Below, one piece after another: positions 12,589 through 48,101 of a stretch of DNA of 64,000 nt. Every line of letters begins with the position of its first letter. The stretch's first letter is position 1. A program made the translations under genes and the position numbers. This stretch comes from Hanleya hanleyi. Lineage: Eukaryota > Mollusca > Polyplacophora > Lepidopleurida > Hanleyidae. A model generated the notes under the pieces. The model was not told where the DNA came from and did no database searches. It saw only the letters and a list, made by a program, of their open reading frames with translations. The stretch spans positions 16,640 through 80,639 of the forward strand of contig JAVTVY010018829.1 of the NCBI GenBank assembly GCA_036873755.1, in the 5' to 3' direction.

Positions 12589-13019
12589 GTGAGCATTCAA
12601 TACATGTATATGCCTATTCTGTTTGTTCAATCTATGTTAGAAAAACCCATGTTTTTCTAAAAAAAAATGCCATTTATGCCAGCTGGTATTTTATCTGAAA
12701 CAATCCTGTTTGGAATATCCCAATGAAAACATGTTGTACATGTACTCAGTATATTCTGCATTCAAGGGAATGAACTCTGCCATGGTCAGTTGTTGGGTTT
12801 TTTCCCCTGATGTGAAATATTTCTTTTCAGTATGAAAAACTTGCTGGTTTGGCATGGTAATATTTACTCTGCAATAGCAGAATTTTTCTCCACTACTTCC
12901 AAACTTCCAAATAGGTGATAAAAGCTGTTGTCAAAACTGGGTCAAGTATAGGATCATAAATTTTTGCCTAAATTTTTGCAAATTTTGATTGGTTGTGTGC
13001 ATCCCGTGCATGTGCACAA

Positions 13020-13340
13020 CACATTGTTATTGTTTTCCAATTGGTTGTGTTAAGAGATGTTCAGATAATGAAAGGACACAGGAAGCTGACTGTCCGTCAA
13101 GTGACCATCATACCTACCCAGCTAATTATTCAAAGGTTGATACTATAAAGCTGTGCCCTTCCTTGCAGTACCATTTGGTTACAACTTGGTACTGTTACAG
13201 TGTGATACTGTTCTGTAACAGGTTGGTACTGGTCAGTTACAGCTCAGTACGGAGTGGTTACAGTTCAGTAGTGGATGTGTCCATCTTTCTGGTAACTGGT
13301 TGGTAACAGCTTGGTACTGTTCTGTTACAGGTCATACAGG
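13020..13340. repeat. Low-complexity GGTTGGTACTG / GGTTACAG tract
   Basis: Short degenerate repeats of TTGGTTACA, TTGGTACTGT and TAACAGGTTGGTACT. Similar text recurs in intron 3 near 49540-49670 and 50580-50770. The rest of 12589-13825 shows no gene. Confidence 0.5.
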
Positions 13341-13825
13341 TTGGTACACAACCTGTCAAAAATTGCCTGTGTAGCCTTGTCTTGCGAATACCCATCTTTT
13401 CTGCATTTAGTTACATTTGAGTATGGAATATTCAGATTTTAGATTCATTCATCAAAATTGAAAAACGAGAATTTCTGAGTTTTGTCTGTAGGTAATACTG
13501 GTGAAGTTAGGTCAGTGGTGGACAAGCATCATACAAACTATCCAATCAGATTCTGTGATTGCCTCTTCCTGTTTGCAGATTCTGACTCAGTTAACCAATC
13601 AACTGACAGATCTAAACTTATGAATGTGTCACGAGGAATGCATATAATACCTATGAGAATTATATCATTACTGAGTGAAGACAGAAGTGCTCTATCACAA
13701 AGTGATATTTTACTTTCATGAAATTGTTATATTCGGGTTAAATTGTAAGTCTGAGATACATGTATGTAGCAATTCTATATGTATTTTATGAAGTAATTAA
13801 GATTTGTAATTCATAAGACCACACT

Positions 13826-14060
13826 GTGGTAGCCTAATTAATGGTCAGAGTGTCGGCCCTGTAAGCGCTATATAACTGGGTTCAATCCCAGACAGGGTCA
13901 TACCAAAGACTTAAAAAATGGAACTTGTTGCTTCCTCGCTTACGCTCAGCATTAAGAGGATAGAACAAGGACTGGTTCGCTCGGTGTCCATATGATGTGA
14001 CTGAGTGGGATGTCATGGCTGCCTACGGCACAATATTTCTGTTCTTTGAACATTGAAGGG
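13826..14060 (+). mobile_element. tRNA-derived SINE
   Basis: The head resembles a tRNA gene with an RNA polymerase III internal promoter. A degenerate A box lies near 13830-13845, and an excellent B box, GGTTCAATCCC, at 13879-13889. The head is followed by a body with TTACGCTCAGCATTAAGAGG, GGACTGGTTCGCTCGGTGTC and GATGTGACTGAGTGGGATG. This resembles the conserved central block of metazoan SINE superfamilies such as MetaSINEs; the match is from memory and needs a database check. The 3' end is uncertain. Confidence 0.7.
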
Positions 14061-14397
14061 AGCCTCAGCCAGATATATCAAGGGAAGTTCAAAGTGGGAA
14101 CGTAGAAATTGACTTGATAAAATGGAGATGACTGTGAACATGCAAACGTTAAAGTTATGTATGGACAAATAGTTAGCAAACAGATTCAATTAATAGGAGA
14201 TGTCATTCCAGTGTGAGGATATCACAACCGATATGTTATCTGGATAGTGTAAATATATTATTTTTAACTAGTAATTACAATGTAATTATACTGAAATGAT
14301 GAACTTCTTTATATGTGCAACTTATGAACCAGCCAACCCATGATACATGTAACTCATTGTCATGCCACAAATACATAGGTATTTACATATTATAATA

Positions 14398-14760
14398 TTC
14401 AGTCTGGTAAACCCTCTAATAATTCAATCCCCCTATTAAAATTCAATCACCCCCCTTGAATTTTGTCGACAAAATTGAATCATTCGGTGTAATAAGTTTT
14501 ATCCCCCTCTAAAACTGAAGTCTTTGGAATAATTCTGGAGCAGACCTGTAGTTTACGAGAATGCGGCCCATAAACATTTTATAACCCCATTATTGGCTCA
14601 GATAGACAGCATTTATTCCTCAGGCCATTGACATGGCATGAGAGCAACAGTACATCATGGTAGATGTGTTTCAATCATCCTTAATTTTGATTGACAAAAT
14701 TCAATCGGTGGTTCTGATAAATTTGATCTCCCTGTAAAAACATTGAATTAAAGAAGAAAT
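14398..14760. mobile_element. Degenerate copy of the CCCTCTAATAATTCAATC MITE
   Basis: ACCCTCTAATAATTCAATCC at about 14411, a GACAAAATTGAAT block and, near 14690-14750, GACAAAATTCAATC with CTGATAAATTTGATC. These match fragments of the complete copy at 19938-20188. The interior carries unrelated sequence, so this copy is rearranged or itself interrupted. Confidence 0.55.
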
Positions 14761-14799
14761 AATGGATTACATATGCGTGAGTTTGAACCTTTTTTTTTT

Positions 14800-15870
14800 A
14801 ACCTGTCGTCACGCTGTCCGGCTGGCTGGCTGGCTGGCTGGATGAACGACGTGACCGCTCTAAAAGGTGAACCGTTCCAGCTAGAGTCTTCAAATTTGGT
14901 ATACTGCATTGTTGGGTGGTAAAGCACAAGCCTATTGAAACTGGGCACATTTAGTTGATTTTTGTGGTTTCCTTGGCAACATAACGAAAAATATCCATAT
15001 AACGACGTGACCGCTCTAAAAGGTGAACCGTTGCAGCTGGAGACTTCAAATTTGGTATACTGTATTGTTGGATGGTAAAGCACAAGCCTATTGAAATTGG
15101 GCGCATTTAGTTAATTTTTGTGGTTTCCATGGCAACCAATGAAAAATATCCACATGGTGACGTGACCGCTCTCAAAGGTGAACCGTTGCAGCTAGAGACT
15201 TCAAATTTGGTATACAGCATTGTTGGGTGATAAAACACAAGCCTATTGAAATTGGGGACATTTTGGTGGTTTTTGTGGTTTCCATGGCAACATAACAAAA
15301 AATATCCACATTACGACGTGCATGCTCTAAAAGCCGAACCGTTGCAGCTGGAGACTTCAAATTTGGTGTACAGCATTGTTGCATGGTAAAGCACAAGCCT
15401 GTTGAAATTGGGGACATTTTGGGGGTTTTTGTGGTTTCCATGGCAACATAACAGAAAATATCCACATTACGACGTGAATGCTCTAAAAGCCGAACCGTTG
15501 CAGCTACATGTAAAGACTTCAAATTTGGTATATACAGCAATGTTGGGTGGTAAAGCACAAGGCTATTGAAATTGGGTAAATTTGGGTGTTTTTGCTGTTT
15601 CCATGGCAACAATATGGAAAATATCCACAGAATGAGGTTAATGCTTTAGAAACAGAACCATTGCAGCTATTCACTTCAAATTTGTTAGCATTATTGTGTG
15701 CTTGGTGTTTTTGCAGTTTCCATGGCAACAAATGGAAAATATCCACAGAATGATGTTAATGCTTTAGAAACCAAACCATTGCAGCTACACACTTCGAATT
15801 TGGTAGCATATTGTGTGGTAAATCACAAGCCTATTGAAATTGGGTACATTTGTGACAATTTTTGGGTCTA
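14800..15870 (+). repeat. Tandem array of about 150-165 bp units (TTTCCATGGCAACA family)
   Basis: Six to seven units each contain GACGTGACCGCTCTAAAAG, GAACCGTTGCAGCT, GACTTCAAATTTGGTATAC, TGGTAAAGCACAAGCCTATT and TTTGTGGTTTCCATGGCAAC. The array starts after a TTTTTTTTT tract and a (GGCT)n run at 14815-14840. Minus-strand frames of 60-146 codons are repeat products. The opening with CGTC/CTGTCCGG resembles the opening of the arrays at 2828 and 53770. Confidence 0.8.
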
Positions 15871-16430
15871 TGTAAAAGTGTGCCTGGACAAAAGCCCACG
15901 ATTGGAACACTTGAGACTTACTACAGTTATCACAAACCTGTGTGGGTCAGCATCAACAAAACTGTAGATCATCTGTAACTCCTGAGAGAAGAAAACGGAC
16001 ATGGACTAAATGAGTTCCAACAATCCGGAGTACCTCACTACCTCAGTATGACATCCATGCACCCAATACCAAGGTTTGCAACAATTCCATCATCTGTATA
16101 ATACACCTGCATCTATCGTACTATGCCTTTAACATTTTACATTAACCAACAATACATGTGAACATTTCCTTACACGTAATTGAGAGCCACTTTAATGCTC
16201 CTCTTATCAGAGTGGGTGGGTGCCTGCCCCTTTTATATCTAGTTGTCTCTAGCCAACTTTCCATACAAATAAACATGACTGTTTTTCCCTCAACTACTTC
16301 TGTTTCCCCTTATTGAATGCCCTTCATCTGTCTATACCGGAGATTTATATTGCTCATGTGAAAGGGACGGCAAGTTCACACTAGGCCGATGGGATCAAGT
16401 GTGGCCGTGGCCTCTAGTTTCAACTTCCTG
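15870..16430. other. No gene seen
   Basis: No supported ORF, RNA gene or repeat. Confidence 0.4.
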
Positions 16431-16512
16431 TTCTAATAAATTTGATCACCTACAGATTTTTATGGTGGGAAATATCACTTCCTGTGATTGAATTATTGGA
16501 GGATCACCGTAG
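16430..16512. mobile_element. Half copy of the CCCTCTAATAATTCAATC MITE
   Basis: TTCTAATAAATTTGATCACC, CACTTCCTGTGATTGAATTA and TTGGAGGATCAC match one half of the 19938-20188 copy (inverted) and of the 56373 copy. Confidence 0.6.
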
Positions 16513-17121
16513 ATTTTTTTTATCATGTTGATACAGATCATCAATTTGAATTTGATAGCAATTGGTGCTTTAAGACCATCCACAATAGTATTTGTGTTCA
16601 TCAAGCTTGTCCTTAGTAAACCACAGGCTTTCCTGATCAGCTCTATGTCAAACAGTGTCAATTTGAAGGATTTAGGTGAGAAATCATCTGCTCGCCTCAA
16701 ATACCGAAATAGATGCCACATGTGGGGTTAATCACAGGAGTCCAGTCATCGATCGACTGTCACGAGACTCAGACCTCTTTGATAGCTAAACGGAGTTTGG
16801 ATACATGCCAGTCATCGATCCAGCCAATTAGCGATGAACAAACAGCCAGGCTACAGAACACTGTCACATGATCTTCACTGTCACATGATCTTCACAAGCA
16901 AAACAGGCGACTGTAAACGTGATACCTGTCAGAGAGCCCGGTTGCCCAGAGAGGACACCGGATGATGCAGTTACTGCCCACTGTACTCCTATACCAGCCC
17001 AAAGGGGCCCAGGCAAATCTCTATCGCGGTTTGATTTGACTGGGTTCGTGCAGATGAAGTAGGGTTGATAAGTGCAGTTTTAAGTCTTTTCGATGACTGA
17101 TAACCACCTACATGTACACAT

Positions 17122-17273
17122 GGGCGTCACCAGGATTTCATGAGAGGGGGTCGTTTTTTATCCTTATTTATTAGAGAGCCCAATGTTCTGTTCAACATAG
17201 GAAACTATCCTATAGTTTAGCTCTTAGAGGGAGTCGTTCGCACCCAACGACCCCCTCTAGTGATGCCCTTGGT
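17122..17273. mobile_element. Short MITE-like element, AGAGGGGGTCGTT inverted ends
   Basis: GGGCGTCACC...AGAGGGGGTCGTT at the left is mirrored by AACGACCCCCTCTAGTGATGCCC at the right, enclosing about 150 bp. There is no coding capacity. Confidence 0.55.
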
Positions 17274-17545
17274 ACAAGTGGTATTGTGAACAGTTTGAAG
17301 AAACTGGGACTGACAAGTCTTCATCAACGTTGTGTGGAGCTGCACAGTGCTCACCAGATATAGCTTGGGTAAGGTACAAACCTACAAACCTTAAACATCA
17401 CCATTACCAACCAAATTGAAAGCATTTTAGAGGTGGTTTTGAGTTCTCAAGCATCCTGTAGAAGGGCTCTACCTGTGAGTATCTCAAAACAGACTGAATA
17501 CCATGATTGACAATTTGAATGTTCATGGGCCAACCTAGACTACGT

Positions 17546-18064
17546 TCATACTACACTCCTCAGATTCATCCTCTCATTGTCCGAGTTTGTATAACCTCCT
17601 AAACTCTCGGTGTAACACTGACAGTTGGAGGTATACAACCTGATGTAATGAGAATGCCTAGATTTGGCTGCCTTTAAATTCAAGTCTGGTGGCAAAATGG
17701 TAGATTTATTTGAACACCGCAGAAACCAGTCCATGCCCTTTCTAAATCTCCTTAATTTTCAGGAAATCCACAAACTAATATTTGTTTCAGTGAGATTGCC
17801 TGATGGTATAGATGTGCTCGTCGGTGTTCTTTCTTCAAGGAACCAAGCCAATCTAGGTAAACCAAGATGGTAAATCAGGGAAATACCATCTAGACGTAAC
17901 GCTATGAAAACTTCGTGCAAAATGTTCGCCGATATTCTGCGAGATCCCATAATAACACAATCACGACCATTTCTGACTTTTCTCTCTGACAATGATTGAC
18001 GTTTACTCACAGAGATTAACGTCTTGCGCGGCACAATCTTTTGATATTTTCTACCCCCTACCAA
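17546..18064 (-). other. Unidentified minus-strand open frames (101 and 62 codons), possibly a decayed coding exon
   Basis: The frame 17759-18064 has non-repetitive, protein-like composition, with segments GRDCVIMGSRRISANILHEV and LIYHLGLPRLAWFLEERTP. After a stop, a second minus frame continues into the 62-codon frame to 17546. I do not recognise a family. It could be a remnant of a transposon or host gene, or chance. No splice model could be defended. Confidence 0.25.
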
Positions 18065-18952
18065 AGCCAGACTTTTCGCCGGAAGTAAACTCTTTGATCT
18101 TCACGGATCTGTCTGGAAATGATGCCATATTTGGATACTGTTTCCCCGATCATGTTTAATTAGTCCACGTGCTACCGTGTATAATTACTGTGGGCGTGAT
18201 TTCAACAAGCTAGTCACCTGATTGGCTAAGAAATATAGTTTCAGATTCGCATGGGATTTATATAGGGCTGAATTATAGTATAGTATTCCGTGATATTATA
18301 TTGGGAACCAAGCATGTCACATCAGCATGTATTTGAGTTAAGTGTGGAAGCCCACTTTTTGGTTAATATATTTCCCAAAGTTTCACCTTGGCAGCAGATT
18401 TTATGATGTTTATGCGTTATAATAGTAGGCCTATACAACAATGTATATTTTTCTGAGGGTAAAAAATTAGAACATTTGTTATACTTGAAATTTGTATTTC
18501 AAAATGAATTGGAGAACAATCATACATGTGTATTTATATATTTTGCAAATTATATTAACTATACTGCAATGAGATTGTTTCAAAACACACATTTGATAAG
18601 TGATACCTTGTTCCCAACAAAACAAATATGAATAAAGATAAAATCCACCTGTTTGCCTTGCTGTCCTGGTTAGCAGATGATGATAAATGAACTACTCAGT
18701 TTAATGAGACTTATCATAAATACTATCAGGGATTTGTTTGTGCATGCGATGTTTGTTACATGTATTATTCGATCATGGAAACAAACATTGAATGTTTGTA
18801 GAATCTTCCTCTCAGGTCACCATAATGCTCCATGGTGAGGGGATTTAGATCAGCTTTTACAGTTGAATACCATTCATAACAGAAACTTGGCTCACAATCA
18901 CCATGCCTCTGATATTGTTATTCTGAAACATAAATGAAATGTTTAAGTTCTT

Positions 18953-19048
18953 CCATCTATTCAATTCCATGCTAATACCCATATTTCCCAATCACACAGA
19001 CCATCTATTCAATTCCATGCTAATACCCATATTTCCCAATCACACAGA
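18953..19048. repeat. Exact 48 bp tandem duplication
   Basis: The unit starting CCATCTATTCAATTCCATGC and ending CCCAATCACACAGA occurs twice in direct succession without a visible difference. It looks like a recent local duplication. The surrounding 18065-19937 has no gene. GGGGATTTAGATCAGC also occurs twice in it (18838 and 19373). Confidence 0.85.
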
Positions 19049-19937
19049 CTGTCCTCTGTAGTACTATACTGTCAGTATGGGTATACTCTATGTGGGTCAT
19101 CTATTGATAGAACCCTGTTATGTTCACATGACCTCCAGGGGATTGACCTGCATCCTGCTTCTAAGCATGTAGGCCAGACCCATGGACCAATCAAATCGAG
19201 GCTTACAAAACAGTCTGTCTGCTTGTGTTGATCTGTCCTCTATGTAGGTCGAGTTGTTTTTTTCTGATTCAGACCAAATAAAGGTCATATCTGTTTACAA
19301 TCTAAGCATTTTTGGCTGGAGTTGTTTGCCCAGTTCTGTTTGATACAGATTTGATTCAGCAGATTTTGAGAGGGGATTTAGATCAGCAGTTTTATCACTG
19401 ATCAGCTGAACACAGCCATTTTCCCAACCCACTAGAAGTTGTTATGACTGGAATAGATCTTGTTCCCAGCCTTTGAGTGGATACATTTCATTGGTCAAAG
19501 CTGACCTCAGGGTATTAACCCATTTTCTGAGATTTATTGAAGCGGGACTTGTGTGTGCTTGAAGAAAACTGCATACATTATGCTTATATGGAAAGCCTGT
19601 GGGCAGGCGAGCACACTACTGGGGTATGGTATGTGTGTGCTGGTGCAACGCGGGACACAGGCCCTGTACAGACATGTTAACCGCTCTCCCAATTACAGGG
19701 TAAGTTTTAACCTTTTCTCTCTAATTGGTTGACTTTTCTTCACCGCGATTATGTCATAAATTACTTCTACAAATTACCAGCAAAGACACAACTGTTGTGG
19801 CGAGAAAAATTGATTCAGTGATTTCACTGTGCATAATGTTGTTATCCCGCCATCATAACATTGTGACAGTGACCCACTTTTGGTGAATCGCGTATTAAAC
19901 ACACTTGTGGGCATGTACATGTATTAATATCTTGTTA

Positions 19938-20188
19938 CGGTAATCCCTCTAATAATTCAATCGCAGGAAGTGAATTTTTTTTTATATAAAAGCAGGGGTG
20001 ATCAAATTTATTAGAACAGGAAGTTGACAAAATGGTTCAAAATCGTGCATATAATCCATTATTTTTTCATTATTTCAATGCTTTTAGATGGTGACCAAAT
20101 TTATTAGAACAGCTAAATTGAATTTTGTCCCCAAAAGGGCGGTTGATTCAATTTTGTTAGGGGGATTGAATTATTAGAGGGATTGCTG
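19938..20188. mobile_element. Complete 251 bp MITE with TA target sites
   Basis: The left end reads CGGTAATCCCTCTAATAATT and continues CAATC. The right end, inverted, reads CAGCAATCCCTCTAATAATT and continues CAATC. TA flanks both ends (19936-19937 and 20189-20190). TIRs of at least 25 bp with TA duplications suggest a Tc1/mariner-type MITE. Partial copies occur at 14398, 16430 and 56373, so the family is active or was recently amplified here. Confidence 0.8.
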
Positions 20189-20189
20189 T

Positions 20190-20830
20190 ATTAAGTTCAC
20201 ACTTGTGTCCTGAATAGTTGGTATGTATTCCGGCGCATTTACATGTATAACAGATTAGGTCACTCTGAGCTGTGATGTAATTCATGTACAAGCTGCTCTA
20301 GACCTATTCATTACATTGAAAACTGACTATAATGATATGTATTGTTTATCAAAGCATGGATAAATAGCATGTGCATGTATGTATGCACATGTTGTATCAT
20401 ATTGACCAAGGTGTAAGAACAAACCTGTAACCTCACTGTACACGGTTTATATGCCTCCTGGATATTCCTGGAATTTTAATTCCATCCTAGAAAGTGCTTA
20501 AAAGTGCATAAAAATTGGGTTTACGTCCTGGAAACTCCCTGAAAAGTCAGCATTAGGAGTGTATTGATCCCCAAGATCTCTGTCCTATCAACAGTACGTG
20601 TACATGTATATGTTAATAATCGTGTCAGAAATTGTGTAATATAGTGCTGGAAAACTGCTAGAAAATGACCTATATATCAGCTTGGAATTTTCATTGAAGG
20701 GCATTGTATGAGCCCTGACTAAAGCTGGATTGAACAAGTATACAACTAGTCTGCAGAACAGATATCAACACAAGCAGACAGTATGTGGGGTATAAATTGA
20801 TGTGAGTGTGGCATGCATTAATCAAGCCAC
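20190..20830. other. No gene seen
   Basis: AT-rich intronic sequence with scattered ACATGTA motifs and no supported gene. Confidence 0.4.
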
Positions 20831-23480
20831 CTATGAGTGTTTCTGTTTGATTCAGTTATGGAACCTGTGAGTGTGTCTGTGGTACTTGATTCAGTTATAA
20901 AGGAACCTGTGAGTATGTGGTACTTGAATCAGTTAAGGAACCCATGAATGTGTCGGTGGTACTTGATTCAGTTAAGAAACCAGTGTGTGTGTCTGTGATA
21001 CTTGATTCAGTTAAGAAACCTGTGAGTGTCAGTGGTACATGATTCAGCCAAGGAACCCATGAGTATGTCAGTGGTACTTGATTCAGTTAAGGAACCAGTG
21101 AGTCTGTCTTTGGTACTTGATTCAGTTATGGAACCAGTGACTGGGTCAGTGGAACTTGATTCAGTTAAGGAACCTGTAAAAGTGTCTGCGGTACTTGGTT
21201 CAATCAAGGAACCAGTGAATGTGTCTGTGGTACTTGATTCAGTTAAGGAACCAGTGAGTGTGTCTGTGGTACTTGATTCAGATAAGGAACCTGTGTGTCA
21301 GTGGTACCTGATTCAGTCAAGGAACCTGTGAGTGTGTTTGTGGTACTTGATTCAGTCAAGGAACCTGTGTGTGTCTGTGGTACCTGATTCAGTCAAGGAA
21401 CCTGTGAGTGTGTTTGTGGTACTTGATTCAGTCAAGGAAGCTGTGTGTGTCTGTGGTACTTGATTCAGTTAAAGGAACCTGTGAGTGTGTTTGTGGTGTG
21501 TGATTCTGCCAAGGAACCTGTGAGTGTGTTTGTGGTACTTGATTCAGTCAAGGAACCTGTGAGTGTGTCTGTTGTACTTGATCCAGTCAAGGAACCTGTG
21601 AGTGTGTCTGTGGTACTACTTGATTCAGTTATGGAACCTGTGAGTGTGTCTGTGGTACTTGATTCAGTTAAGTAACCTGTGAGTGTGTCTGTGATACTTG
21701 ATTCAGTTAAGTAACCTGTGAGTGTGTCTGTAATACTTGATTCAGTTAAGTAACTTGTGAGTGTGTTTGTGGTCTGTGATTCTGCCAAGGAACCTGTGAG
21801 TGTGTTTGTGGTACTTGATTCAGTCAAGGAACATGTGGGTGTGTCTGTGGTACTTGATTCAGTTAAGGAACCTGTGAGTGTGTCTTTGGTACTTGATAAT
21901 ATTAAGGAACCTATGAGTGTGTCAATGTTACTTGATTCAGTTAAGGAACCAGTGAGTGTGTCTGTGGTACTTGATTCAGTTAAGGAACCTGTGAGTGTGT
22001 TTGTGGTGTGTGATTCTGCCAAGGAACCTGCGAGTGTATTTGTGGTACTTGATTCTGTCAAGGAACCTGTGAGTGTTTCTGTTGTACTTGATTCAGTCGA
22101 GGAACCTGTGAGTGTGTCTGTGGTACTTGATTCAGTTATGGAACCTGTGAGTGTGTCTGTGGTAGTTGATTCAGTTAAGTAACCTGTGAGTGTGTCTGTG
22201 ATACTTGATTCAGTTAAGTAACCTGTGAGTGTGTCTGTGGTACTTGATTCAGTTATGGAACCTGTGAGAGTGTCTGTGGTACTCGATTCAGTCAAGGAAC
22301 GTGTAAGTGTGTCTGGTACTTGATTCAGTCAAGGAACATGTGAGTGTGTCTGTGGTACTTGATTCAGTTAAGGAACCTGTGAGTGTGTCTGTGGTACTTG
22401 ATTCAGTTTAGGAACCTGTGAGTGTGTTTGTGGTGTGTGATTCTGCCAAGGAACCTGTGAGTGTGTTTGTGTTACTTGATTCAGTCAAAGAACCCGTGAG
22501 TGTGTCTGTTGTACTTGATTCAGTCAAGGAATCTGTGAGTGTGTCTGTGGTACTTGATTCAGTCAAGGAACCTGTGAGTGTGTCTGTGGTACTGGATTCA
22601 GTTAAGTAACCTGTGAGTGTGTCTGTGATACTTGATTCAGTTAAGTAACTTGTGAGTGTGTTTGTGGTGTGTGATTCTGCCAAGGAACCTGTGAGTGTGT
22701 TTGTGGTACTTGATTCAGTCAAGGAACCCGTGAGTGTGTCTGTTGTACTTTATTCAGTCAAGGAACCTGTGAGTGTGTCTGTGGTACTTGATTCAGTTAA
22801 GGAACCTGTGAGTGTGTATGTGGTACTTGATTCAGTTTAGGAACCTGTGAGTGTGTTTGTGGTGTGTGATTCTGCCAAGGAACCTGTGAGTGTGTTTGTG
22901 GTACTTGATTCAGTTATGGAACCTGTGAGAGTGTCTGTGGTACTCGATTCAGTCAAGGAATGTGTAAGTGTGTCTGTGGTACTTGATTCAGTCAAGGAAC
23001 CCGTGAGTGTGTCTCCGGTACTCGATTCAGTTACTCAACTGGTTAGTGTGTCAGTGGTACTCGATTGAGTTAAGGAACCTGTGTGTTTGTGATACTTGAT
23101 CCAGTAAAGGAATCAATGAGTGTGTCTGTGCTACTTGATTCAGTTAAGGAACCTGTGAGTGTGTCTCTGATTCCTGATTCGGTTAAGGAATGTGTGAGTG
23201 TGTCTGTACTACTTAATTAAGTCAAGGAACCCATGAGTGTGTCTGTGGTACTTGATTCAGTTAAGGAACTGGTGAGTGTGTTTGTGGTATGTGGTGAAGT
23301 AGCAGGAACACAACTGGGCTGGGTGGTGCTTAGTTGGTTCGTCGTGATATAGCTAAAATATTGTTGAAAGCGACGTTAAACTCTATTCACTCACTCACTT
23401 GTGGTATGTGATTCAGTCAAGGAACCTGTGATTGTGTCTGTGGTACTTGATTCAGCTAACCTGTGAGTATGTCTGTGGTA
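20830..23480 (+). repeat. 39 bp minisatellite (about 60 units) with higher-order structure
   Basis: The core unit is GAACCTGTGAGTGTGTCTGT followed by GGTACTTGATTCAGTTAAG. Because 39 is divisible by three and the unit has no stop in one frame of each strand, both strands show long frames. The plus strand repeats EPVSVSVVLDSVK; the minus strand (276 codons at 21465-22295) repeats LTESSTTDTLTGS. A variant unit with GTGTGTGATTCTGCCAAG recurs at about 21490, 21775, 22005, 22435, 22670 and 22857, showing higher-order duplication. Frames are broken by TAA variants and indels, and no start, signal peptide or splice structure supports a gene. The array lies in MRPL24 intron 1 and resumes briefly at 23816-23920. 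Confidence 0.9.
23295..23400 (+). mobile_element. SINE 3' region inserted in the minisatellite
   Basis: GAAGTAGCAGGAACACAACT, CGTCGTGATATAGC, TGTTGAAAGCGACGTTAAA and a CACTCACTCACT tail. A near-identical piece with the same 5' limit lies at 29347-29455, and the same tail ends the element at 55780-56085. The minisatellite continues on both sides. Confidence 0.75.
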
Positions 23481-23494
23481 CGTGATTCAGTTAT

Positions 23495-23814
23495 GGGAGC
23501 TTCTTGAAATTAGGGCAGGAGTTCCTTGGTAGGAATGGCATATGCCGGTTATCCAAATGGGATACACCATGCCCAGTTTGGTGCTCTGATCTGGATGGAT
23601 TAGAGTGCCAATTAGAATGGCATACATTGTAAATTGGAATGGCATATGCCATTCCCCTCATGCCATTGCATGGTATGGCATAAGCCATCCTTTGTCTACC
23701 AAGTTCCAAAAATTATGACATGGAGTTCCTAGAAGTTTCAACTCAGTGCACCATGCCTCTCTGTTTGGAATGCCAATGCCATTTCCTAGCATGCCCTAAT
23801 TTCAAGAAGCTCCC
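23495..23814. mobile_element. 320 bp foldback element inserted in the minisatellite
   Basis: GGGAGCTTCTTGAAATTAGG at the left is mirrored by CCTAATTTCAAGAAGCTCCC at the right. The interior has multiple GGAATGGCATATGCC-like palindromic words. Minisatellite units stop at its left edge and resume (AAAGGAACCTGTG) at its right edge, so the insertion limits are clear. Confidence 0.8.
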
Positions 23815-24159
23815 AAAGGAACCTGTGATTGTGTTTGTGGTACCTGATTCAGTTATTAAGGAACCTGTGAGTGTGTCTGTGGTACCTGATTCAGTTGAGA
23901 AACCTGTGAGTGTGTGGTATGGCATATCACGTTGGGCACACCTGTGTTTGCGTGTGGGCAAATTGCTGTGCATGTACCCGGTACTGAGAAATTTAGGTGC
24001 ACACTGTGCATGTAAGGTTTTTGTCCAAATTCGAGCCTTGTACATAAATCCCACAAGAAACTGTGCATGTAGGTATACATAGAAGAATAAAGTTCATTTT
24101 CATCATTGATTCTGTGAAATATTTGCTGAGAAATGAGAGCTTTATATTTTATATTGTGT

Positions 24160-24221
24160 GTTCTTTCATGCCATTGTAGGCCAAGTCTTCAACAAGATCT
24201 GTTTGCACCAGCTCCCACAAG
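24160..24221 (+). promoter_or_regulatory. Possible splice acceptor and 5' leader of the adenosine kinase gene
   Basis: TTCTTTCATGCCATTGTAG ends at 24179 and looks like a functional 3' splice site. It would place 42 bases of leader before the ATG at 24222. If used, a 5' untranslated exon lies upstream, possibly one borrowed from the host gene. The site could also be fortuitous. Confidence 0.45.
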
Positions 24222-25280
24222 ATGGCTGAGCCCAATGCTGCCCCAGGCCAGGAGGGGATACAAGAGGGAATTCTACTGGGCATAGGGAACCCCCTGCTTG
24301 ACATATCCGTATACGGAGATGAGACAATCTTGGAGAAATACAATCTCAAGGCGGATAATGCCATCTTGGCAGAGAGCCAGCATGATGAATTGTTTCGGGA
24401 TTTGGTGGAAAACTACCAGCCAGAATATTTACCAGGAGGCGCCACCCAGAACTCCATTCGTGTGGCACAGTGGCTTTTACAAAAACCAAAGGCGACCTCA
24501 TTCATAGGTGCTGTGGGGGACGATGATTTTGGTAGGATATTACGAGAAGTAGGTCAGCGGATCGGGGTTGATGTTGTGTACGAGGTCGTGCCCAAGGAAG
24601 AAACAGGTGTCTGTGCCGCAGTGATTACAAATGAAGACCGCTCGCTCGTCTCTAAGCTGGGGGCAGCAAAAATGCTCAATCTGGACTTCGTAACGAGGCC
24701 AGACATCTGGAGTTATGTCGAGCGGGCGAAGTATTTCTACATTGGCGGATATGTGCTTCCTGTTTGTCCAGATGCCGTCAAGAAGGTGTTGGAGCATGCG
24801 GCAGCCAATGATAAAACTGTTGTGATGAATCTGCATGCCACGTACCTGTGTGAATATTTTGTCCATAAAGATCTGAACATCTTGCCTTATGTGGACGTGA
24901 TCGTGGGGAATGGACCTGAAGCCAGGAAACTTGCTGAAGGGCTGGGAATGGGGACGCAAGTGACCCCAGAGATTGCTCTCAAAACGTGCGCTCTGCCAAA
25001 GGCCAACTCAAAGCGAGGCAGAATAGTGGTGTTCACGCAAGGCAGGAAGCCAGTCTTCATGGCCCACGATGGCACAGTTAGCGAACACACCATATGTCCA
25101 CTTGACACGGCCCTAATCAAGGACACTAATGGCTGTGGGGACGCCTTTGTAGGGGGTTACCTCTCCCAGCTTGTACAGGGTAAACCCCTAGAGGATTGCA
25201 TCAGATATGGGCTATATGCCTCAAAAGTGGTTATCCAGCATTTTGGTTGTACGTACCCCACAGTACCAGACTTTGAATAA
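24222..25280 (+). CDS. ADK: Adenosine kinase, intact intronless gene nested in MRPL24 intron 1
   Basis: The 352-residue product matches adenosine kinase along its full length (family about 345), a PfkB-type sugar kinase that phosphorylates adenosine to AMP in purine salvage. Visible motifs are GNPLLD (22-27, nucleoside side), GGATQNSIRVAQWL (72-85), PYVDVIVGN (222-230) with NGPE keeping the NxxE Mg/phosphate motif, and FTQGR (271-275). The anion-hole/catalytic block DTNGCGDAFVGG (301-312) keeps the catalytic Asp307; the usual GAGD reads GCGD. The ATG follows CACAAG, with a possible splice acceptor 42 bases upstream. Animal ADK genes normally have many introns, so one open exon points to a retrocopy kept under selection. 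An AATAAA overlaps the stop codon (25276-25281). No terminal poly(A) or target duplication was seen. GC content is clearly higher than in the flanks. Confidence 0.95.
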   Translation: MAEPNAAPGQEGIQEGILLGIGNPLLDISVYGDETILEKYNLKADNAILAESQHDELFRDLVENYQPEYLPGGATQNSIRVAQWLLQKPKATSFIGAVGDDDFGRILREVGQRIGVDVVYEVVPKEETGVCAAVITNEDRSLVSKLGAAKMLNLDFVTRPDIWSYVERAKYFYIGGYVLPVCPDAVKKVLEHAAANDKTVVMNLHATYLCEYFVHKDLNILPYVDVIVGNGPEARKLAEGLGMGTQVTPEIALKTCALPKANSKRGRIVVFTQGRKPVFMAHDGTVSEHTICPLDTALIKDTNGCGDAFVGGYLSQLVQGKPLEDCIRYGLYASKVVIQHFGCTYPTVPDFE

Positions 25281-25309
25281 ATAATACCTCATATTAATTT
25301 ATATATAGA

Positions 25310-25525
25310 TACGGCATACCAGGTTCTCATCAGATCAGCGTAGTGGAGCAACACTGAGCCCAGTCAATACTTGGATGAGTGACGGGTGCTGTACTGACTG
25401 GGATCATCAGTGTCCAGGATAATAGGTTGGGTTCATGTCCTGGCACATGTAGGCACAGCCGCGACCTAAAAATTGTCGAAAACGACGTTTTTCTTACTCG
25501 CTCACTCACTCACTCACTCATGCTA
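25310..25525 (+). mobile_element. 5S-rRNA-derived SINE
   Basis: Positions 25310-25398 follow 5S rRNA: TACGGCATACCA at the start, TCATCAGATCAGCG, AGCAACACTGAGCC, then the internal-control region AATACTTGGATGAGTGACGG and GTGCTGTACTG. This head is followed by a body and by GTCGAAAACGACGTT with a (CACT)n tail. It therefore belongs to the SINE3-type class, using the 5S promoter. It starts only 30 bases after the adenosine kinase stop codon and may be part of that transcript's 3' UTR. Confidence 0.8.
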
Positions 25526-27954: not shown

Positions 27955-29530
27955 TCGCATTCAAAGTTTGATGTAGGCATTGTGGTACATTTAAACTTTG
28001 ATTGTAGACATTGTGACATGTTTGAACCTTGAATATAGACATATGTGGCACATTTAAACTTTGATTGTAAACATTTTATCACATTCTGTAGACATTGTAG
28101 CACATTTAAACTTTGAATGTAGACATTTTATCACATTTTGACTTTGATGTAGACAATTATGGCACAGATAAACTTTAAATGCAGACATTATGTCACATTC
28201 AAACTTGGATGTAGACATTGAATCACACTGAAACGTTGAACATTCAATGCAGACATTGTATCACGTTCAAACATTGCATGCTGGCATTGTTTCACATTCA
28301 AACTTTGATTGCAGACCTTGTATAACATTCAAACTTTGCTTGTTGCCATTGTGTCACATTCAAACTTTGAATGTGGACATTGTATCACATCCAAACTTTG
28401 CATTTTGACATTGTATCACATTCAAACTTTGAAGGCAGACATTGTATCACATTCAAACTTTGTATGTTGACATTGTGTCACATTCAAACTTTGCATGTTG
28501 ACATTGTGTCACATTCAAACTTTGCATGTTGACATTGTGTCACATTCAAACTTTGCATGTTGACATTGTGTCACATTCAAACTTTGTATGTTGACATTGT
28601 ATCACATTCAAACTTTGTATGTTGACAATGTATCACATTCAAACTTCGTATGTTGACATTGTCACATTCAAACTTTGCATGTTGACATTGTATCACATTC
28701 AAACTTTGTATGTTGACATTGTGTCACATTCAAACTTTGCAAGTTGACATTGTGTCACATTCAGACTTTGAAAGCAGACATTGTCACATTCAAACTTTGC
28801 ATGTTGACATTGTATCACATTCAAACTTTGTATGTTGACATTGTGTCACATTCAAACTTTGCATGTTGACATTGTGTCACATTCAAACTTTGTATGTTGA
28901 CATTGTATCACATTCAAACTTTGTATGTTGACAATGTATCACATTCAAACTTTGTATGTTGACATTGTGTCACATTCAAACTTTGCATGTTGACATTGTA
29001 TCACATTCAAACTTTGCATGTTGACATTGTGTCACATTCAAACTGCATGTTGACATTGTGTCACATTCAAACTTTGTATGTTGGCATTGTTTCACATTCA
29101 AACTTTGACTGCAGACCTTGTATAACATTCAAACTTTGCTTGTTGCCATTGTGTCACATTCAAACTTTGAATGCAGACATTGTGTCACATTCAAACTTTG
29201 CATGCAGATATTGTATAACATTCAAACTCTGTGTGTTGACATTGTATCACATTCAGCCTCTTGTCTGTGTCTTGTGCGCTGTCCTCAGTGTTCTATAGGG
29301 TGGATGGAGGGTGTCTGGTTCCATGCTGCTTCAAAAATTTCTTCTTTGAAGTAGCAGGAACACAACTGGGCTGGGTGGTGCTTAGTTGGTTTGTCGTGAT
29401 ATAGCTGAAATATTGTTGAAAGCGACGTTAAATTCTATTCACTCACTCACTGACTTGTATCACATTCAAACCTTGAAGGCAGACATTGTATCACATTCAA
29501 TCTTTGAATGCATACATGATACCACATTCA
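27955..29530 (+). repeat. 31 bp minisatellite (about 45-50 units)
   Basis: The core unit is GTTGACATTGTGTCACATTC followed by AAACTTTGCAT. Units are diverged at the left edge (from about 27958), nearly uniform at 28430-29090 and diverged again at the right, the pattern expected when unequal exchange homogenises the centre. A SINE piece interrupts it at 29347-29455, and three decayed units follow (29456-29545). Apparent frames (78-103 codons) are repeat products. Confidence 0.9.
29347..29455 (+). mobile_element. SINE 3' region inserted in the 31 bp minisatellite
   Basis: Near-identical to 23295-23400, with the same left limit (GAAGTAGCAGGAACACAACT) and the same CACTCACTCACT tail. Confidence 0.75.
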
Positions 29531-34175: not shown

Positions 34176-34589
34176 AAGGGCTCTATGTATATAATAACAT
34201 GGAAGTAGATGTAGTGATGACAATTGGATGAGAATAATGTGATTGTGATGACTGACATCTGGGTAAGACTAATAACGTTAAGGTGATGAAATCTCTATCG
34301 TTTTAGAGATAACATTGACGATGAGATATCTCTCAGAGAATTAGAATGAGAGTATCGTGATGAGAAGATGACATGGTTCTTTGTGAAATGAGTTATTGAT
34401 CATCATGAACATGGTGTTATGGCAGCAGTGAGAAAGTGATGTGATGATACATTAATATTTGAGAGTATGGTAGTTGTATCAGTATTGGGGAGAACGTGAG
34501 AACATAAATAGACATATCTGGGAGAACTGAGACATAGAAAGATGAGTGGTGATGAGCTTGGTGATGATATCTGAGAGACAAACAGGTGA

Positions 34590-36310
34590 GAGTAAAGTGA
34601 TACTATGGTGAGAGTGAAGTGATGACATTGTGAGTGGAGCGATGACATTGTGAGTGTGAACTGATGACATGGTGAGTGTGAAGTGATGACCTGGTGAGTG
34701 TGAAGTGATGACATTGTGAGTGTGAATTGATGACTTTGTGAGTGAAGTGATGACATGGTGAGTGTGAAGTGATGGCATTGTGAGTGTGAAGTGATGACAT
34801 GGTGAGTGTGAAGTGATGACATTGTGAGTGTGAAATGATGACATTGTGAGTGAAGTGATGACATGGTGAGTGTCAAGTGGTGACATTGTGAGTGTCAAGT
34901 GATGACATGGTGAGTGTGAAGTGATGACATTGTGAGAGTGAAGTGATGACATGGTGAGTGTGAAGTGATGACATTGTGAGCGTGAAGTGATGACATTGTG
35001 AGCGTGAAGTGATGACATGGTGAGTGTGAAGTGATGACATGGTGAGTGTGAAGTGATGACATGGTGAGTGTGAAGTGATGACATGGTGAGTGTGAAGTGA
35101 TGACATGGTGAGTGTGAAGTGATGACATGGTGAGAGTGAAGTAATGACATTGTGAGTGTGAAGTGATGACATGGTGAGAGTGAAGTAATGACATTGGGGG
35201 AGTGAAGTGATGACATCTTGAGAATAAAGTGATGACATCGTGAGAGTGAAGTGATGGTGAGAGTAAAGAGATGAGCTAGGTGAGAGTATGGTGACGACAT
35301 GGTGAGAGTGAGGTTATGACATGGTGAGAGTGAAGTGATGACATAGTGAGGGTGAAGTGATGACATAGTGAAAGGGGAATGATGACAGGGTGAGAGTGAA
35401 GTGATGACATGGTGAGAGTGAAGTGATAACCTAGTGAGAGTGAGGTGATGACTTGGTGAGAGTGATTACATTGTGAGAGTGAAGTGATGACATGGTGCGA
35501 GTGAGGTGATGGCATGGTGAGTGTGAAGTGATGACATTGTGATCGTGAAGTGATGACATTGTGTGAAGTGATGACATGGTGAGTGTGAAGTGATGACATT
35601 GTGAGTGTGAAGTGATGACATGGTGAGTGTGAAGTGATGACATGGTGAGAGTGAAGTAATGACATTGTAAGTGTGAAGTGATGACATGGTGAGAGTGAAG
35701 TAATGACATTGTGAGAGTGAAGTGATGACATCTTGAGAATAAAGTGATGACATCGTGAGAGTGAAGTGATGGTGAGAGTAAAGAGATGAAACTAGGTGAG
35801 AGTATGGTGACGACATGGTGAGAATGAAGTGGTGACATGGTGGGAGTGAGGTTATGATATGGTGAGAATGAAGTGGTGACATAGTGAGGGTGAAGTGATG
35901 ACATAGTGAAAGGGGAATGATGACATGGTGAGAGTGAAGTGATGACATGGTGAGAGTGAAGTGATAACCTAGTGAGAGTGAGGTGATGACTTGGTGAGAG
36001 TGATTACATTGTGAGAGTGAAGTGATGACATGGTGTGAGTGAAGTGATGACATGGTGAGAGTGAAGTGATGACATTGTGAGTGGAGTGATGACATTGTGA
36101 GAGTGAAGAGATGACATGGTGAGAATAAAGTGATAGTGAGGTGATGACATAATGAGTGTACGGTGATGACATGGTGAGAATGAGGTGGTGACATAATGAG
36201 TGTACGGTGATGACATGGTGAGAGCGAGGTGATAACATGGTGAGAGTGAAGTGATGACATGGTAAGATTAAAGTGATGAAATACTGAGAGTAAGGTGATG
36301 ACATCTGTAT
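34590..36310 (+). repeat. 22 bp minisatellite (about 75 units)
   Basis: The unit is GTGATGACATGGTGAGTGTG followed by AA, with TTGTGAG and GAGAGTG variants. Twenty-two bases is not a multiple of three, and on the minus strand the unit has no stop in any frame. Three overlapping minus-strand frames of up to 295 codons therefore result, all repeating MSSLHTHHVITSHSPC-like text. A block of about 500 bp (35180-35460) is repeated as 35690-36000, a higher-order duplication. I see no evidence of a gene. Confidence 0.9.
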
Positions 36311-41491: not shown

Positions 41492-41605
41492 ATTTCACAG
41501 ATGTGCATTGTGATGGTGAAGACGAAGCCTTCTTATCCCTCTGTCAATTTTGGTCAAAGGGTATAATCTTGGTGCATCCGTCCCTCTGTCCATCTTGCTT
41601 GTTAA

Positions 41606-43277: not shown

Positions 43278-44528
43278 TTTGATTTATAATTATTATTGTT
43301 ATTATTTATTGATGGCTCAGCGAGTACACAGTCATGCCCATCGGGAACCCTTGGCTGTATGTTTCACTGTATATATAACACAGTGGTGGGATATGCCATC
43401 CTTAATTGTTTTTATGAAATAGGAAATGCTAATTTTCCATCATTTGTTAGTGCATTTATCTACACCGCTATGCCAGCCTCAATACACACAATTCAGTATA
43501 TTGTTATAGATATATGTAAACTGTGGCCTTTAACGTGTATCCTATTTCACATCCAAACATTTCATCACTGACCACATCAGGCTCAAATTCAGGTCAAATT
43601 ACCCACTGATGGTGAAATATCCTACATCAACCAATTAAGTCAGCCTGGTGCAATAACCCAGCAGAAGAAAGAAAGATGTGGTATCATCCTTCAGACTAGT
43701 CTGTGTGAGCGACAATGATAAAAGTTTACTGAGGGTGAAACAAAGCCATGACGGCATGTTTAAAGGGTCTTCTTTTGGTAGAATTTAACTAGATAAAGTA
43801 ACTTTGATCATGATGTGAAAATATGATAACTTGATTTTTTTTTGGTACCTCTTGAATATTGACTATATATCACACTTGGATATAATTTAAACAAAAAATT
43901 ACATGTGTAAACAAAATATGTCTAAATTTTTCTTGTCATTTCAAATCTTGATCCATTTTGATTCCTTGATTAGGGGATACAGAATCACTGCCACGGAGTG
44001 TGTTGGTGTGTCACAGCAATGCAATTCCGATTCACACAACGAAGCTGAGATGGTTTAACGTTTATCAATGAAGAAAATCACCGATCAACCGCCATAGAAT
44101 ATAATGTGAAACAAGAAAACCGGAATAGTACATTCATCAGATTGCCGATACTCAAAATGTGTTGTCTCATATATCTAGATAACAACGTGATGTAGAGACT
44201 ATTTATTCGTCTTTGTACCGGTTATGCTCAGGAGAATGACATAGAATCATTATTATCTTGTGCAGAGAAGGTATTGGTCTTGAGTTGAATTAACGTAAAC
44301 TACATAAATGCTACCTTTCTACTATGTACTATATATAAAAATTTGTTGTATTGTTGGGAAAATAATGTGATTCAAAAAGTTGTTTTGATCCTGGACAAGG
44401 GCACTGAAAACCATTAAAGAGATGTAAATGTATTTTCACACGTAACGCTTGAAATCTACTGAACCTTTATTATTCAATCTGTTTCCATTAGTTAAAAAAT
44501 TGTAAAATTAAATCGGCGATCGTTATTT
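43278..44528. other. No gene seen
   Basis: AT-rich, with a short ATTATTATT tract near 43290 and no supported gene. The 91-codon frame at 43296 shows no domain. Confidence 0.4.
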
Positions 44529-44761
44529 AATTTTGGAATGAAGGCGCATTAGAAGACTGTTACCAACAAGTTCTGAGCTGACCTACTTTTGATGAAAATT
44601 CCTGGTGATTTTTGATGAAAATCATTCTGACTTGGGCGGTGCCCATCTTAATATAGGCAGGATTTCAACTGGGGGTGGGGATTTCTAAGAGTTCCGTTCG
44701 CGTTCGAGTCCTAATGCCTACTCTACTTCGTAGGTCCTGTGACGTTAGTCACACTGCTCAT
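44529..44761. repeat. Dispersed repeat copy A3
   Basis: Matches 11965-12200: AAGGCGCATTAGAAGACTGT, CAACAAGTTCTGAGCTGACC and TAGGTCCTGTGACGTTAGTC. It is followed at 44805-44930 by a unit of the GACCTATTTTATC family. Confidence 0.75.
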
Positions 44762-44931
44762 GTTTCATAACATATAGTCAAAAGGTAGACCAGAAACACA
44801 TTCATGTTGACCAACTTCGACCTATTTTATCAGGGTACAATTCTAGTAAATCCGATACGTTAGGGTTATAGCTAGTGATGAAATTCATACTACTGGTGAC
44901 TGGCTATAAGTATAGGCCTATACAAGATGAC

Positions 44932-46276
44932 CAGGGGTAGAATTTCGCAAAATTTTGCGAGAATCAACTGGATTCTCAATGGCTTAGTTTGCGAGAATCC
45001 AAAGAATCCAAATTTGCGGACTTTGGATTCCCAGTGGCACTGTTTGTGAGAATCCAAATTTCTCACACCCAGCATTTCTTGACAAGTTGCCACTTCCATC
45101 AGAGCTGGTTACTGTGCAACTAGATGTAAACTTCTCAATGGGAAATTGATTGAAATCACTTTATTTATTTATTCTTAGGAGGGTGGTTAGCACACCTAAA
45201 ATAGCACACCCTTAAATTAGTTCAGGCGAGTGATTGGTTATCTCCATTGATGAGCAGTATTCAACCTAAACATTTTTTGCTAAGCGGTAAGTATATATAG
45301 TCTGAATCTTATTTCTTTCGTATCTTTGTATTGCAAAAAAAACAACAATTGGGATTGTTTGCATTGCAAAAAAAAAAAAAAAAATAAATAAAAAATTAAA
45401 TCTGGCCACCTGCCTCATTTCCTGGCAAGCAGTAAAACAGTTATTATTACTGAACCTTTATATAAAGACTAGGCATAACAGTTTGGCATGGGTTTATATC
45501 AGATACCGGTACGCAGCAACATTAAAAAAATAAGAAAATTCCTGATATTTTTGTCTCACATATTTTCATTTCATACCATGATGGTTTTTACAGTGAAAGA
45601 TAAAAATTACTAACAAAAATTCAAGAGTCGCAGACATATTACAAGAAGTGCAGTGCCGTTAAAGTTAAAATCTTGACCTCAAATAAACTGACTTCTGAAG
45701 AAATGCGTCTTCTCAACGCAAAGTGATAGACCGCGTTGTTGTTGTTCATGACAGGTCTCATGCAGGCAATGTCTCTGAAGAAACGATCCATTTTTATTTT
45801 CACAAATTTCCTGGGAGAGGATGATTCCCTGCGAGGACCACGTGTTAGCCGGATTCAATTCCTTCATATAGGCTGTTTTCGCCTGTTGGGTTTAACGTAG
45901 GTGGCTTTGCACCAACAGCCGAGCGAAGGAGAATACACTTGAGTCATTTGGCGCCAGTCGGGAACCATTACAGAAAGTATTCGAGGCTCCCAAAAAATAA
46001 TCTAGCTAAGGTTTCCGAGGGTTAGTTAGCGCATTACGTCATCAAAACATAGAAGACCGCCATTGTCCGTTTTGCAGCAAGATAAAAGGATATATCGGGA
46101 GTTTTCTGATTACAGGTCAGCTATTTGACTTGAATCTTCGTGAAATATCTAATAAATCTCTTTGAATGAACAACACACTGATTAAGCTAAGCTTTGCGTT
46201 GGATTCGTGCAAGTTGCATTTCAGGCGAGTCCTTGCGCGAGTCGATTCCCGGATTCGCGTCGCAATTCTACCCCTG
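44932..46276. mobile_element. 1.34 kb non-autonomous DNA transposon, CAGGGGTAGAATT ends
   Basis: CAGGGGTAGAATTTCGC at the left is mirrored by GCAATTCTACCCCTG at the right. ATGAC (GATGACC if the terminal C/G pair is counted outside) directly flanks both ends. It sits inside a repeat unit that otherwise reads AAGATGACC...AACCGTGACC, so the empty site can be inferred. The ends are rich in GCGAGAATCC words. No transposase; the 62-codon frame has no known domain. Confidence 0.8.
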
Positions 46277-46465
46277 ATGACCAACCGTGACCAATTTTTC
46301 CCAGGTCAAATTCATTTTTTACGATATTTTATAAAGAATCATAGCTACCACAATAAAAATGTGTATCTCAGACTGAATCACTGTTTGGATTTCTGCAGTC
46401 AAAAGGTGTGCATCGGCATATGGCTCTTATTGAAATACTATCGAAGGGAACTGAAGTAATTAAGC

Positions 46466-46990
46466 ATACAGAGCCCTCCTGCAGGCACTTTAGCACACCC
46501 CCTAGAATTTGTCTTTGTACCGCTAAAAGTATGCTGTATAGCTGTGGTAATGTATATATTTGTTGAAAGCGCATTTCTTATGGATTCCAAATACATCAAT
46601 TTGTTCACTATAAATCTAGGTTGTGAAGATATTCAAATTTAAACAAAATAATTTTCAAAAATGAGCCTTCTTTTTTAAATGGCTATTTTAAAGAAAGTAT
46701 TCAACTTTTCGTAACTTACATGAAATGATGAAGTAAGTTACGATAAGTTGAATAGTTTTTTGAAAATAGCGTTTAAAAAATTCAAATTTAAATTAAATCT
46801 ATTTAAAATCCAAATATCTTCAGAACATACAGGTATTCAGTGAACAAACTTATATATTTGGAATCCTCAAGGAATGTGCTTTCAAGAAATATATACATTA
46901 CCATAGCTGTGTGGCATACTTTCAGCTGTATAAAGACAATTTCAAGAGGGCACCGTGTGTAAAAGTGTGTGCAGGAGGGCTCTGTACCCT
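46466..46990. repeat. 525 bp foldback palindrome with almost no loop
   Basis: ACAGAGCCCTCCTGCA at the left mirrors TGCAGGAGGGCTCTGT at the right. The arms pair through GGTAATGTATATATT, ATTCCAAATA, TGTTCACT and AGATATT(C/T)AAAT. The centre is TCAACTTTTCGTAACTTAC mirrored by GTAAGTTACGATAAGTTGA. Arms differ at many sites, so the element is old or the arms were never identical. Confidence 0.8.
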
Positions 46991-48101
46991 TAAGGCAAAA
47001 ATTTAGCACAGCAGAATGCGATCCTCTTCAAACTGTGAAAAAAAAAGTTAAATACTATTTCTACGATTGTTTTGAGAAATATTAGTTTGCGCTTTCTATG
47101 ACCCTTCAGCCTCATGATGGACAAATTTCAGACAGACTGTCTGGCTTGGGTCAGAGTTCTCTTCCATACAAAAAATGTAAAATGGGAGTGACCACGGGGT
47201 CGGGCAACCTTGTCCAACACTATAATCTGGTCCTAAGCATGGTCGGTATAGCCATTTCCAGAAAGTGTCTGATCTCCCCTTGATTAACTGCCGCTCTTTG
47301 AGGTTAAAGGTATGTAAAGCTGCTTCCGGGAAGTAGTCGCCTCGGTTTTACATTTACCAAAGGCACTCGCAAATATTTTGAATAATATACTATTCCTGAA
47401 TATTTGCATTAAAAACTATTCTGTTAATATTTTCTACATGAACCGATACCTCCTGTATTCGTGTACATTAGGAAGTTAATTTTTTAGAAAAATAGAATTT
47501 TTTATCACTAGAACTAATTGTGAGGGCCTTTGGTACTTACCGGAAGTTCTCTGTACCAACACACCCCCAGTGGAACAAGGTACATAAAACCCTTTCCGAA
47601 TTAGGCGAATTGTATATGAGTTGTCACAGCGAAACAGCTCACCAATTACCAGTATACGAGTTGTCAGAGCATTTCCATCATAGGTCTCTAGATTTGTATC
47701 TAATACCGCTTATGCCGGTGCTAGGGGCCGTGTGGTCATATCATCCAAGTTGCCACACGAACAGGTACAATAAAAGCGTACCTGAGATACAACAGTCACA
47801 TATCACGAATCGTTAGATTCTTGGTATGTGCTTTAGAATAGGTTAACCAGAAGACTATTCTGTGAAGTCATGTGACGCAGTCAGTATGTCGGCACCTCCT
47901 CCCACTTCCCTTATATGTGTTGTAATACACCGGTTTCACTGTACTCCTCCATTTGTACATGCAGTGACATACACAAATGAGGAAGTAAATGAGATTTAAT
48001 TTTAATTAGATTGCCTGTATCAGATGATAGTTCTGAATGTTGTCATCACAATGATTATTAGGTATAATTGCTAATTAATTAATTTGTTTGCATTTTCTCA
48101 G
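46991..48101. other. No gene seen; last kilobase of MRPL24 intron 1
   Basis: The 98-codon frame at 47520-47816 has no recognised domain. The intron ends at TTTGCATTTTCTCAG (acceptor AG at 48100-48101). Confidence 0.45.

Follow-up and report, generated by a model that had tools for sequence, protein, structure and literature searches.

An intronless adenosine kinase nested in the first intron of MRPL24 in the chiton Hanleya hanleyi, and its possible use of the host's first coding exon

The closest described counterpart of the locus presented here comes from grasses. According to two reports (PMC1543663, PMC7795075), rps14 lies inside an intron of sdh2, is spliced to the first coding exon of its host and uses the targeting peptide of that exon; the fusion precursor is processed, and the transfer in grasses is about 80 million years old. 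A second point of comparison is the human pair CPNE1/RBM12, two different genes described as sharing a promoter (PMC2568002). Our study concerns a stretch of 64,000 nucleotides of the chiton Hanleya hanleyi (assembly GCA_036873755.1, contig JAVTVY010018829.1, positions 16,640 to 80,639 of the forward strand), referred to as the window, in which the open reading frame (ORF) of an adenosine kinase (ADK) is found within the first intron of MRPL24, a gene for a mitochondrial ribosomal protein. No report of MRPL24/ADK nesting or of a mitochondrial ADK was found among the titles and abstract openings listed by searches of an open-access library.

The nested locus and its conservation

An earlier note on this DNA had assembled a 243-residue MRPL24 with exons 1 and 2 joined in exact phase, and had placed a full-length ADK of the same orientation in the 35.5-kb intron between them. 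Our analysis confirms both proposals, exactly to the base; the nesting is, in addition, seemingly ancient. The features of host and guest, in window positions, are the following.

12340..12588, + strand: MRPL24 exon 1, coding, 83 amino acids, ending in GDR in phase 0; proposed to serve both MRPL24 and ADK as first exon and mitochondrial presequence
12589..48101, + strand: MRPL24 intron 1, 35,513 nucleotides, GT...AG, phase 0, between GDR and VEIL
24222..25280, + strand: ADK of the B type, intact single-exon ORF, 352 amino acids, motif DTNGCGD
48102..48197, + strand: MRPL24 exon 2, with the KOW motif (24.1 bits against a Pfam KOW cut-off of 22.3)
49060..49166, + strand: MRPL24 exon 3, from splice reconstruction and genome match
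56650..56789, + strand: MRPL24 exon 4, from splice reconstruction and genome match
59625..59764, + strand: MRPL24 exon 5 with the stop, from splice reconstruction and genome match

When spliced, the five exons (12340-59764) give 732 nucleotides, that is, 243 amino acids and a stop, with GT/AG borders at all four introns. The product is 69% identical to uL24m of Liolophura sinensis, 100% of its length being covered, and this collinear full-length homology together with the KOW motif identifies the host as MRPL24. A search of the whole assembly (2,481,469,871 bases in 52,793 contigs, with only the best candidates scored) returned five matches to MRPL24, which correspond to its five exons and lie on a single contig.

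The guest ORF, on the same strand as its host, matches the Pfam family PfkB (PF00294) over its full length (E 4.1e-55, 187.7 bits, cut-off 25.8), and its nearest relatives are named as ADK; solved ADK chains match its residues 11-351 with E 6.4e-104. It is the sole full-length match among three to ADK in the assembly. The DTNGxGD motif, which has a catalytic role in ADK, is intact, in the segment DTNGCGDAF. Among the 120 ADK proteins listed in our study, 103 carry DTNGCGD, 13 DTNGAGD and three DTNACGD, with one lacking a match; the DTNGAGD carriers include the A-type ADK of Liolophura and the proteins of Oscarella, Montipora and plants, the B type having C where the A type has A. The window ADK is 66% identical to the B-type protein of Liolophura (P0001, LOC135472370), versus 49% to its A-type protein (P0109).

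In a tree of 45 rows (the window sequence and 44 hand-chosen members of the 120 listed proteins), the B-type ADKs of molluscs, annelids, nemerteans and Lingula form a clade of 36 rows with support 100/100, within which the molluscan part comprises 27 rows (100/98). The window ADK groups with the Liolophura B type (100/99), and the Liolophura A type falls outside the B clade. A further B-type protein, P0002, groups with the two chiton sequences (92/87) and has R-N-F-T before ADK in its leader; its source is possibly another aculiferan. An A-type ADK split by introns is present in the same assembly, where four exon matches to P0109 are 71-82% identical: residues 3-30, 46-73 and 65-132 on one contig (C14925) and 300-342 on another (C36758). 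In the loci read, two of these four matches contain one in-frame TAA, located where the match overruns the exon edge. From the sequence comparisons, the nested ADK is an ancient lophotrochozoan paralogue without coding introns, which is most simply explained as a retrocopy. We consider it very probable that the B type is retro-derived, its parentage being inferred. At such an age, neither a poly(A) tract nor a target-site duplication would be expected to persist.

The nesting itself is almost certainly conserved across molluscs. In all seven species with values for both proteins among the matches listed (Liolophura, Haliotis rufescens, Littorina, Aplysia, Physella, Octopus and the nemertean Lineus), the longest contigs recorded for B-type ADK and for MRPL24 are equal in size, and on this basis we take the two genes as linked. 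In Liolophura, P0001 and uL24m (P0121) are both on a contig of 58,388,612 bases, and the A-type ADK is on a different one. It is important to note that the equal-sized contig measures 29-112 Mb in Liolophura, Haliotis, Littorina, Octopus and Lineus, which perhaps indicates the same chromosome only, and that Aplysia (1.45 Mb) and Physella (1.39 Mb) have it as a scaffold of some 1.4 Mb; for Physella, a further MRPL24 protein is recorded on a contig of 68,651 bases. Gene order was read directly in the window and, in a snail, through one gene model: protein P0241 of Batillaria attramentaria (649 amino acids) runs from MRPL24 exon 1 up to GDR, through a linker and ADK almost to its end, into MRPL24 exons 2-3. 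As a transcript it is probably mis-chained; as a predicted protein it shows the genomic order exon 1, ADK, exon 2. Traces of the same arrangement appear, from protein sequences, in snails, a pearl oyster and an octopus. A nesting that seems to have persisted in chitons, snails, a bivalve and an octopus calls for a functional reason, and one that can be tested is the sharing of a targeting exon.

Splice sites and possible sharing of the first exon

At the two ends of the ADK ORF, three further elements bear on how it could be expressed.

24178..24179, + strand: AG of a putative acceptor that precedes the ADK exon, TTCTTTCATGCCATTGTAG followed by GCC; 11 of 15 pyrimidines
24180..24221, + strand: 14 open codons from the acceptor to the ADK ATG, AKSSTRSVCTSSHK, in frame with exon 1
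25276..25281, + strand: AATAAA, possible poly(A) signal for an ADK terminal exon, overlapping the ADK stop; consensus only

The putative acceptor (24179/24180) is located 42 nucleotides 5' of the ADK ATG, and the TAG at 24177-24179 serves both as its end and as the in-frame stop limiting the ADK frame on the 5' side. Its scored tract, with 11 pyrimidines in 15, compares with 9-12 at the four MRPL24 acceptors. The predicted join of 12588 to 24180 produces one open frame of 449 amino acids, whereas with an offset of 1 or 2 a stop is met after 117 or 98 residues, respectively; ADK is therefore phase-compatible with MRPL24 exon 1, in whose downstream intron it lies on the same strand. These features make it likely that the acceptor at 24180 is used.

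Gene models in four molluscs join MRPL24 exon 1 to ADK. Besides Batillaria, the exon is fused to ADK, ending exactly at GDR, in Octopus sinensis (P0071), Bulinus truncatus (P0016) and Pinctada imbricata (P0056), and the Octopus protein is named as adenosine kinase isoform X2, with an exon-1 part that by eye is identical to that of Octopus MRPL24 (P0159). In addition, nine ADK proteins contain a pyrimidine-coded run followed by Q (CAG), at a distance from the ADK core of 12-16 residues in eight of them and of 33 residues in P0040. Such a Q follows 9 of 25 runs in the extensions versus 6 of 114 in the cores (Fisher P 1.2e-4), in a test that uses protein sequences only and in which the runs are not independent, many of those without Q coming from the near-identical P0049, P0052, P0054 and P0065. 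The pattern suggests that a phase-0 acceptor 5' of the intronless ADK is conserved in other species, where the genomic ORF would run through it. A first, looser version of this run-through test let 360 of 1059 core Q residues pass and did not discriminate; it was replaced by the strict version.

The earlier note had stated that a nested gene on the same strand must have its own promoter, which does not follow, and had offered as an alternative that host and guest share a first untranslated exon. The sharing fits better, given phase 0 on both sides, the open frame to the ATG and the four molluscan models, and the untranslated state does not, as the shared exon is likely coding. With some reserve, we consider it probable that MRPL24 exon 1 is truly shared in at least some molluscs.

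A number of observations weigh against this interpretation. Acceptors as good as the one at 24180 occur 1.7 times per kb on the + strand, which makes it weak evidence alone. The MRPL24 leader is present on only three of the 27 NCBI-named B-type ADKs among the listed proteins, 24 being without it, and on three of the 116 ADK N-termini inspected among the 120; P0001 of Liolophura and P0003 of Haliotis are both listed without it. The Bulinus, Pinctada and Batillaria models may result from predictor chaining, only the Octopus one being a named isoform. Other N-terminal extensions are found in Mactra (P0024), Saccostrea (P0076), Plakobranchus (P0074), Biomphalaria (P0020) and Lineus (P0084), and also in P0025, P0031, P0042, P0046, P0049, P0052, P0054 and P0065, which makes the use of some other first exon likely in those ADKs. 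A search with exon-1 sequence supplied by P0071 and P0016, among proteins longer than MRPL24 (352 candidates) gave three proteins, namely the two query sources and Batillaria as the sole addition; it detected no other fusion among these candidates and missed the known one of Pinctada. Finally, many intact MRPL24 ORFs are present among the matches listed, and the joining of exon 1 to exon 2 is thus evidently the usual one.

Several of these points favor a different explanation, in which B-type ADK would be an independent nested gene. It would be driven by a private promoter, located within intron 1 or further upstream, a private 5' exon would be spliced to 24180, and the fusions would be products of prediction chaining. 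The 24 leaderless proteins, the unrelated and in several cases basic N-terminal extensions, the separate listing of ADK-B in Liolophura and Haliotis, and the single new fusion recovered by the exon-1 search all agree with it, and for the first two reasons a private first exon for ADK deserves to be kept in view. On the other hand, it leaves the named Octopus isoform to be accounted for, as well as the matching phases, in the chiton, of exon 1 and the acceptor of ADK, which were not picked there by any predictor. A scan of 12589-24179 for private first exons, with looser donor criteria, found among 17 candidates upstream of ADK no basic coding exon at a net charge of at least +3; its two controls gave 0 of 3 on the reverse strand and 3 of 6 downstream of ADK, so that the result, from a scan blind to a non-coding 5' exon or to any exon upstream of 12340, carries little weight. 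Very strict donor criteria likewise yielded no private first exon. Overall, the independent gene is an alternative to be taken seriously, although we hold it to be somewhat less likely than not.

Two other explanations fare much worse. That ADK is a processed pseudogene or young retrocopy landed in the intron by chance would agree with its intronless coding part and with an A-type ADK split over exons on two contigs of the same genome, but it is highly improbable given the intact 352-residue frame, the 66% identical Liolophura protein on a contig equal in size to that of MRPL24, and the 100/100 clade. An assembly artefact joining unrelated loci, conceivable in an assembly of 52,793 contigs with large tandem arrays inside intron 1, can practically be discarded, as the window contains no N, all five MRPL24 exon matches are on this contig, the Batillaria model has the same order and contig sizes agree in the seven other species.

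Possible mitochondrial targeting and the proposed mechanism

The N-terminus of MRPL24 exon 1 has six K+R versus three D+E in 30 residues and a hydrophobic moment (muH) of 0.49. Among the B-type ADKs with other extensions, P0042, P0046, P0049 and P0024 of Mactra reach more presequence-like values of 0.56-0.73, and lower ones are seen in P0025 (0.32), P0031 (0.29) and Biomphalaria (0.22). The -3R cleavage motif is given as R-x-F/Y/L before A/S (PMC8847149), and we searched for it as R-x-[FYL]-[STA], with T allowed in addition. It occurs in 13 of 77 B-type extensions of at least eight residues versus 1.3% of 3850 core stretches, a control whose significance is overstated, since the 13 rows include the close relatives P0049, P0051, P0052, P0054 and P0065 and the composition of the cores differs from that of presequences. 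In Octopus, the exon joint of GDR with NFST itself creates the motif. Two results count on the other side: muH hardly separates the classes (0.49 for the window exon, 0.38 for Bulinus, 0.37 for the Lineus ADK and 0.42 for A-type ADK), and the window leader, with GDR joined to AKSSTRSVCTSSHKM, does not have the motif. The evidence makes it reasonably probable that B-type ADK is mitochondrial in at least some lophotrochozoans; a mitochondrial ADK is thus likely for part of the family and, for the window gene, only plausible. If the guest enzyme is indeed mitochondrial, the mitochondria of a major group of animals would gain adenosine phosphorylation.

Considering these data together, we somewhat favor a model of a single transcription unit that can finish at either of two 3' ends, in which the ADK exon would be an alternative terminal exon using the first coding exon of its host. 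An intronless, retro-derived ADK paralogue of the B type would have resided in MRPL24 intron 1 since the mollusc ancestor at least, and transcription from MRPL24 exon 1 would serve both products. Splicing of 12588 to 48102 would yield MRPL24, with ADK removed along with the intron; splicing of 12588 to 24180, followed by polyadenylation soon after 25280, would yield the 83-residue MRPL24 leader, 14 further residues and ADK. The leader, as the basic N-terminus of a mitochondrial ribosomal protein, would then bring ADK into mitochondria and be cleaved near the joint, both import and cleavage being inferred. In some lineages another first exon would supply the N-terminus; a set of alternative first exons, MRPL24 exon 1 among them, would reconcile the leader-bearing and the leaderless ADKs. 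Inserted downstream of a coding exon that already encodes a presequence, a retrocopy could have been expressed immediately, and this would account for its having survived and stayed in place. Mollusc classes are older than 500 million years. In its full extent, our proposal, which we put forward tentatively, is that the nested ADK may have used MRPL24 exon 1 as a cleavable presequence since the mollusc, perhaps the lophotrochozoan, ancestor, that is, for more than 500 million years, giving these animals a mitochondrial ADK and linking adenosine metabolism to the mitoribosome by way of a common promoter and a single choice of splice site.

Other features of the window and comparison with known systems

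Apart from the two genes, the window contains the following tandem repeats.

20847-23289: minisatellite in MRPL24 intron 1, 39 bp x 63
27958-29255: minisatellite in MRPL24 intron 1, 31 bp x 42
34585-36134: minisatellite in MRPL24 intron 1, 22 bp x 72, overlapping long minus-strand ORFs that look spurious
51486-53349 and 57312-58815: tandem arrays in MRPL24 introns 3 and 4, built of 169-bp units that are closely similar

The stretch at 25335-25510, directly 3' of ADK, resembles by eye a short interspersed element derived from 5S; it gave no credible Rfam match, the one at E 0.58 scoring 16.3 bits where the gathering score is 100. Neither a tRNA nor any Rfam family at gathering score was found in the window. 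A minus-strand ORF at 7869-8765 (298 amino acids) has a C-terminus that looks chromodomain-like by eye (EQYLIKWVGEYEPEWIFREDF), with no Pfam match up to E 10. With regard to annotation, it is important to consider that predictors may merge both genes of this locus, as in Batillaria.

The nearest relatives of the window ADK and MRPL24 are P0001 and P0121 of Liolophura sinensis, which, however, are listed as separate proteins. Unlike CPNE1/RBM12, whose first exon is reportedly common to both genes, the exon shared here would be translated as part of both proteins. Like rps14/sdh2, the chiton locus carries a foreign coding exon within an intron of a host whose product is mitochondrial, on the same strand and in a phase compatible with host exon 1. 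The roles are different: in rps14/sdh2 the guest is a transferred organelle gene for a ribosomal protein and the host a metabolic enzyme, whereas in these animals the ribosomal protein gene is the host and harbors a duplicated metabolic enzyme. The MRPL24/ADK arrangement also seems to be older, as it extends over several mollusc classes. If the exon sharing is true, MRPL24/ADK may be an animal counterpart of rps14/sdh2.

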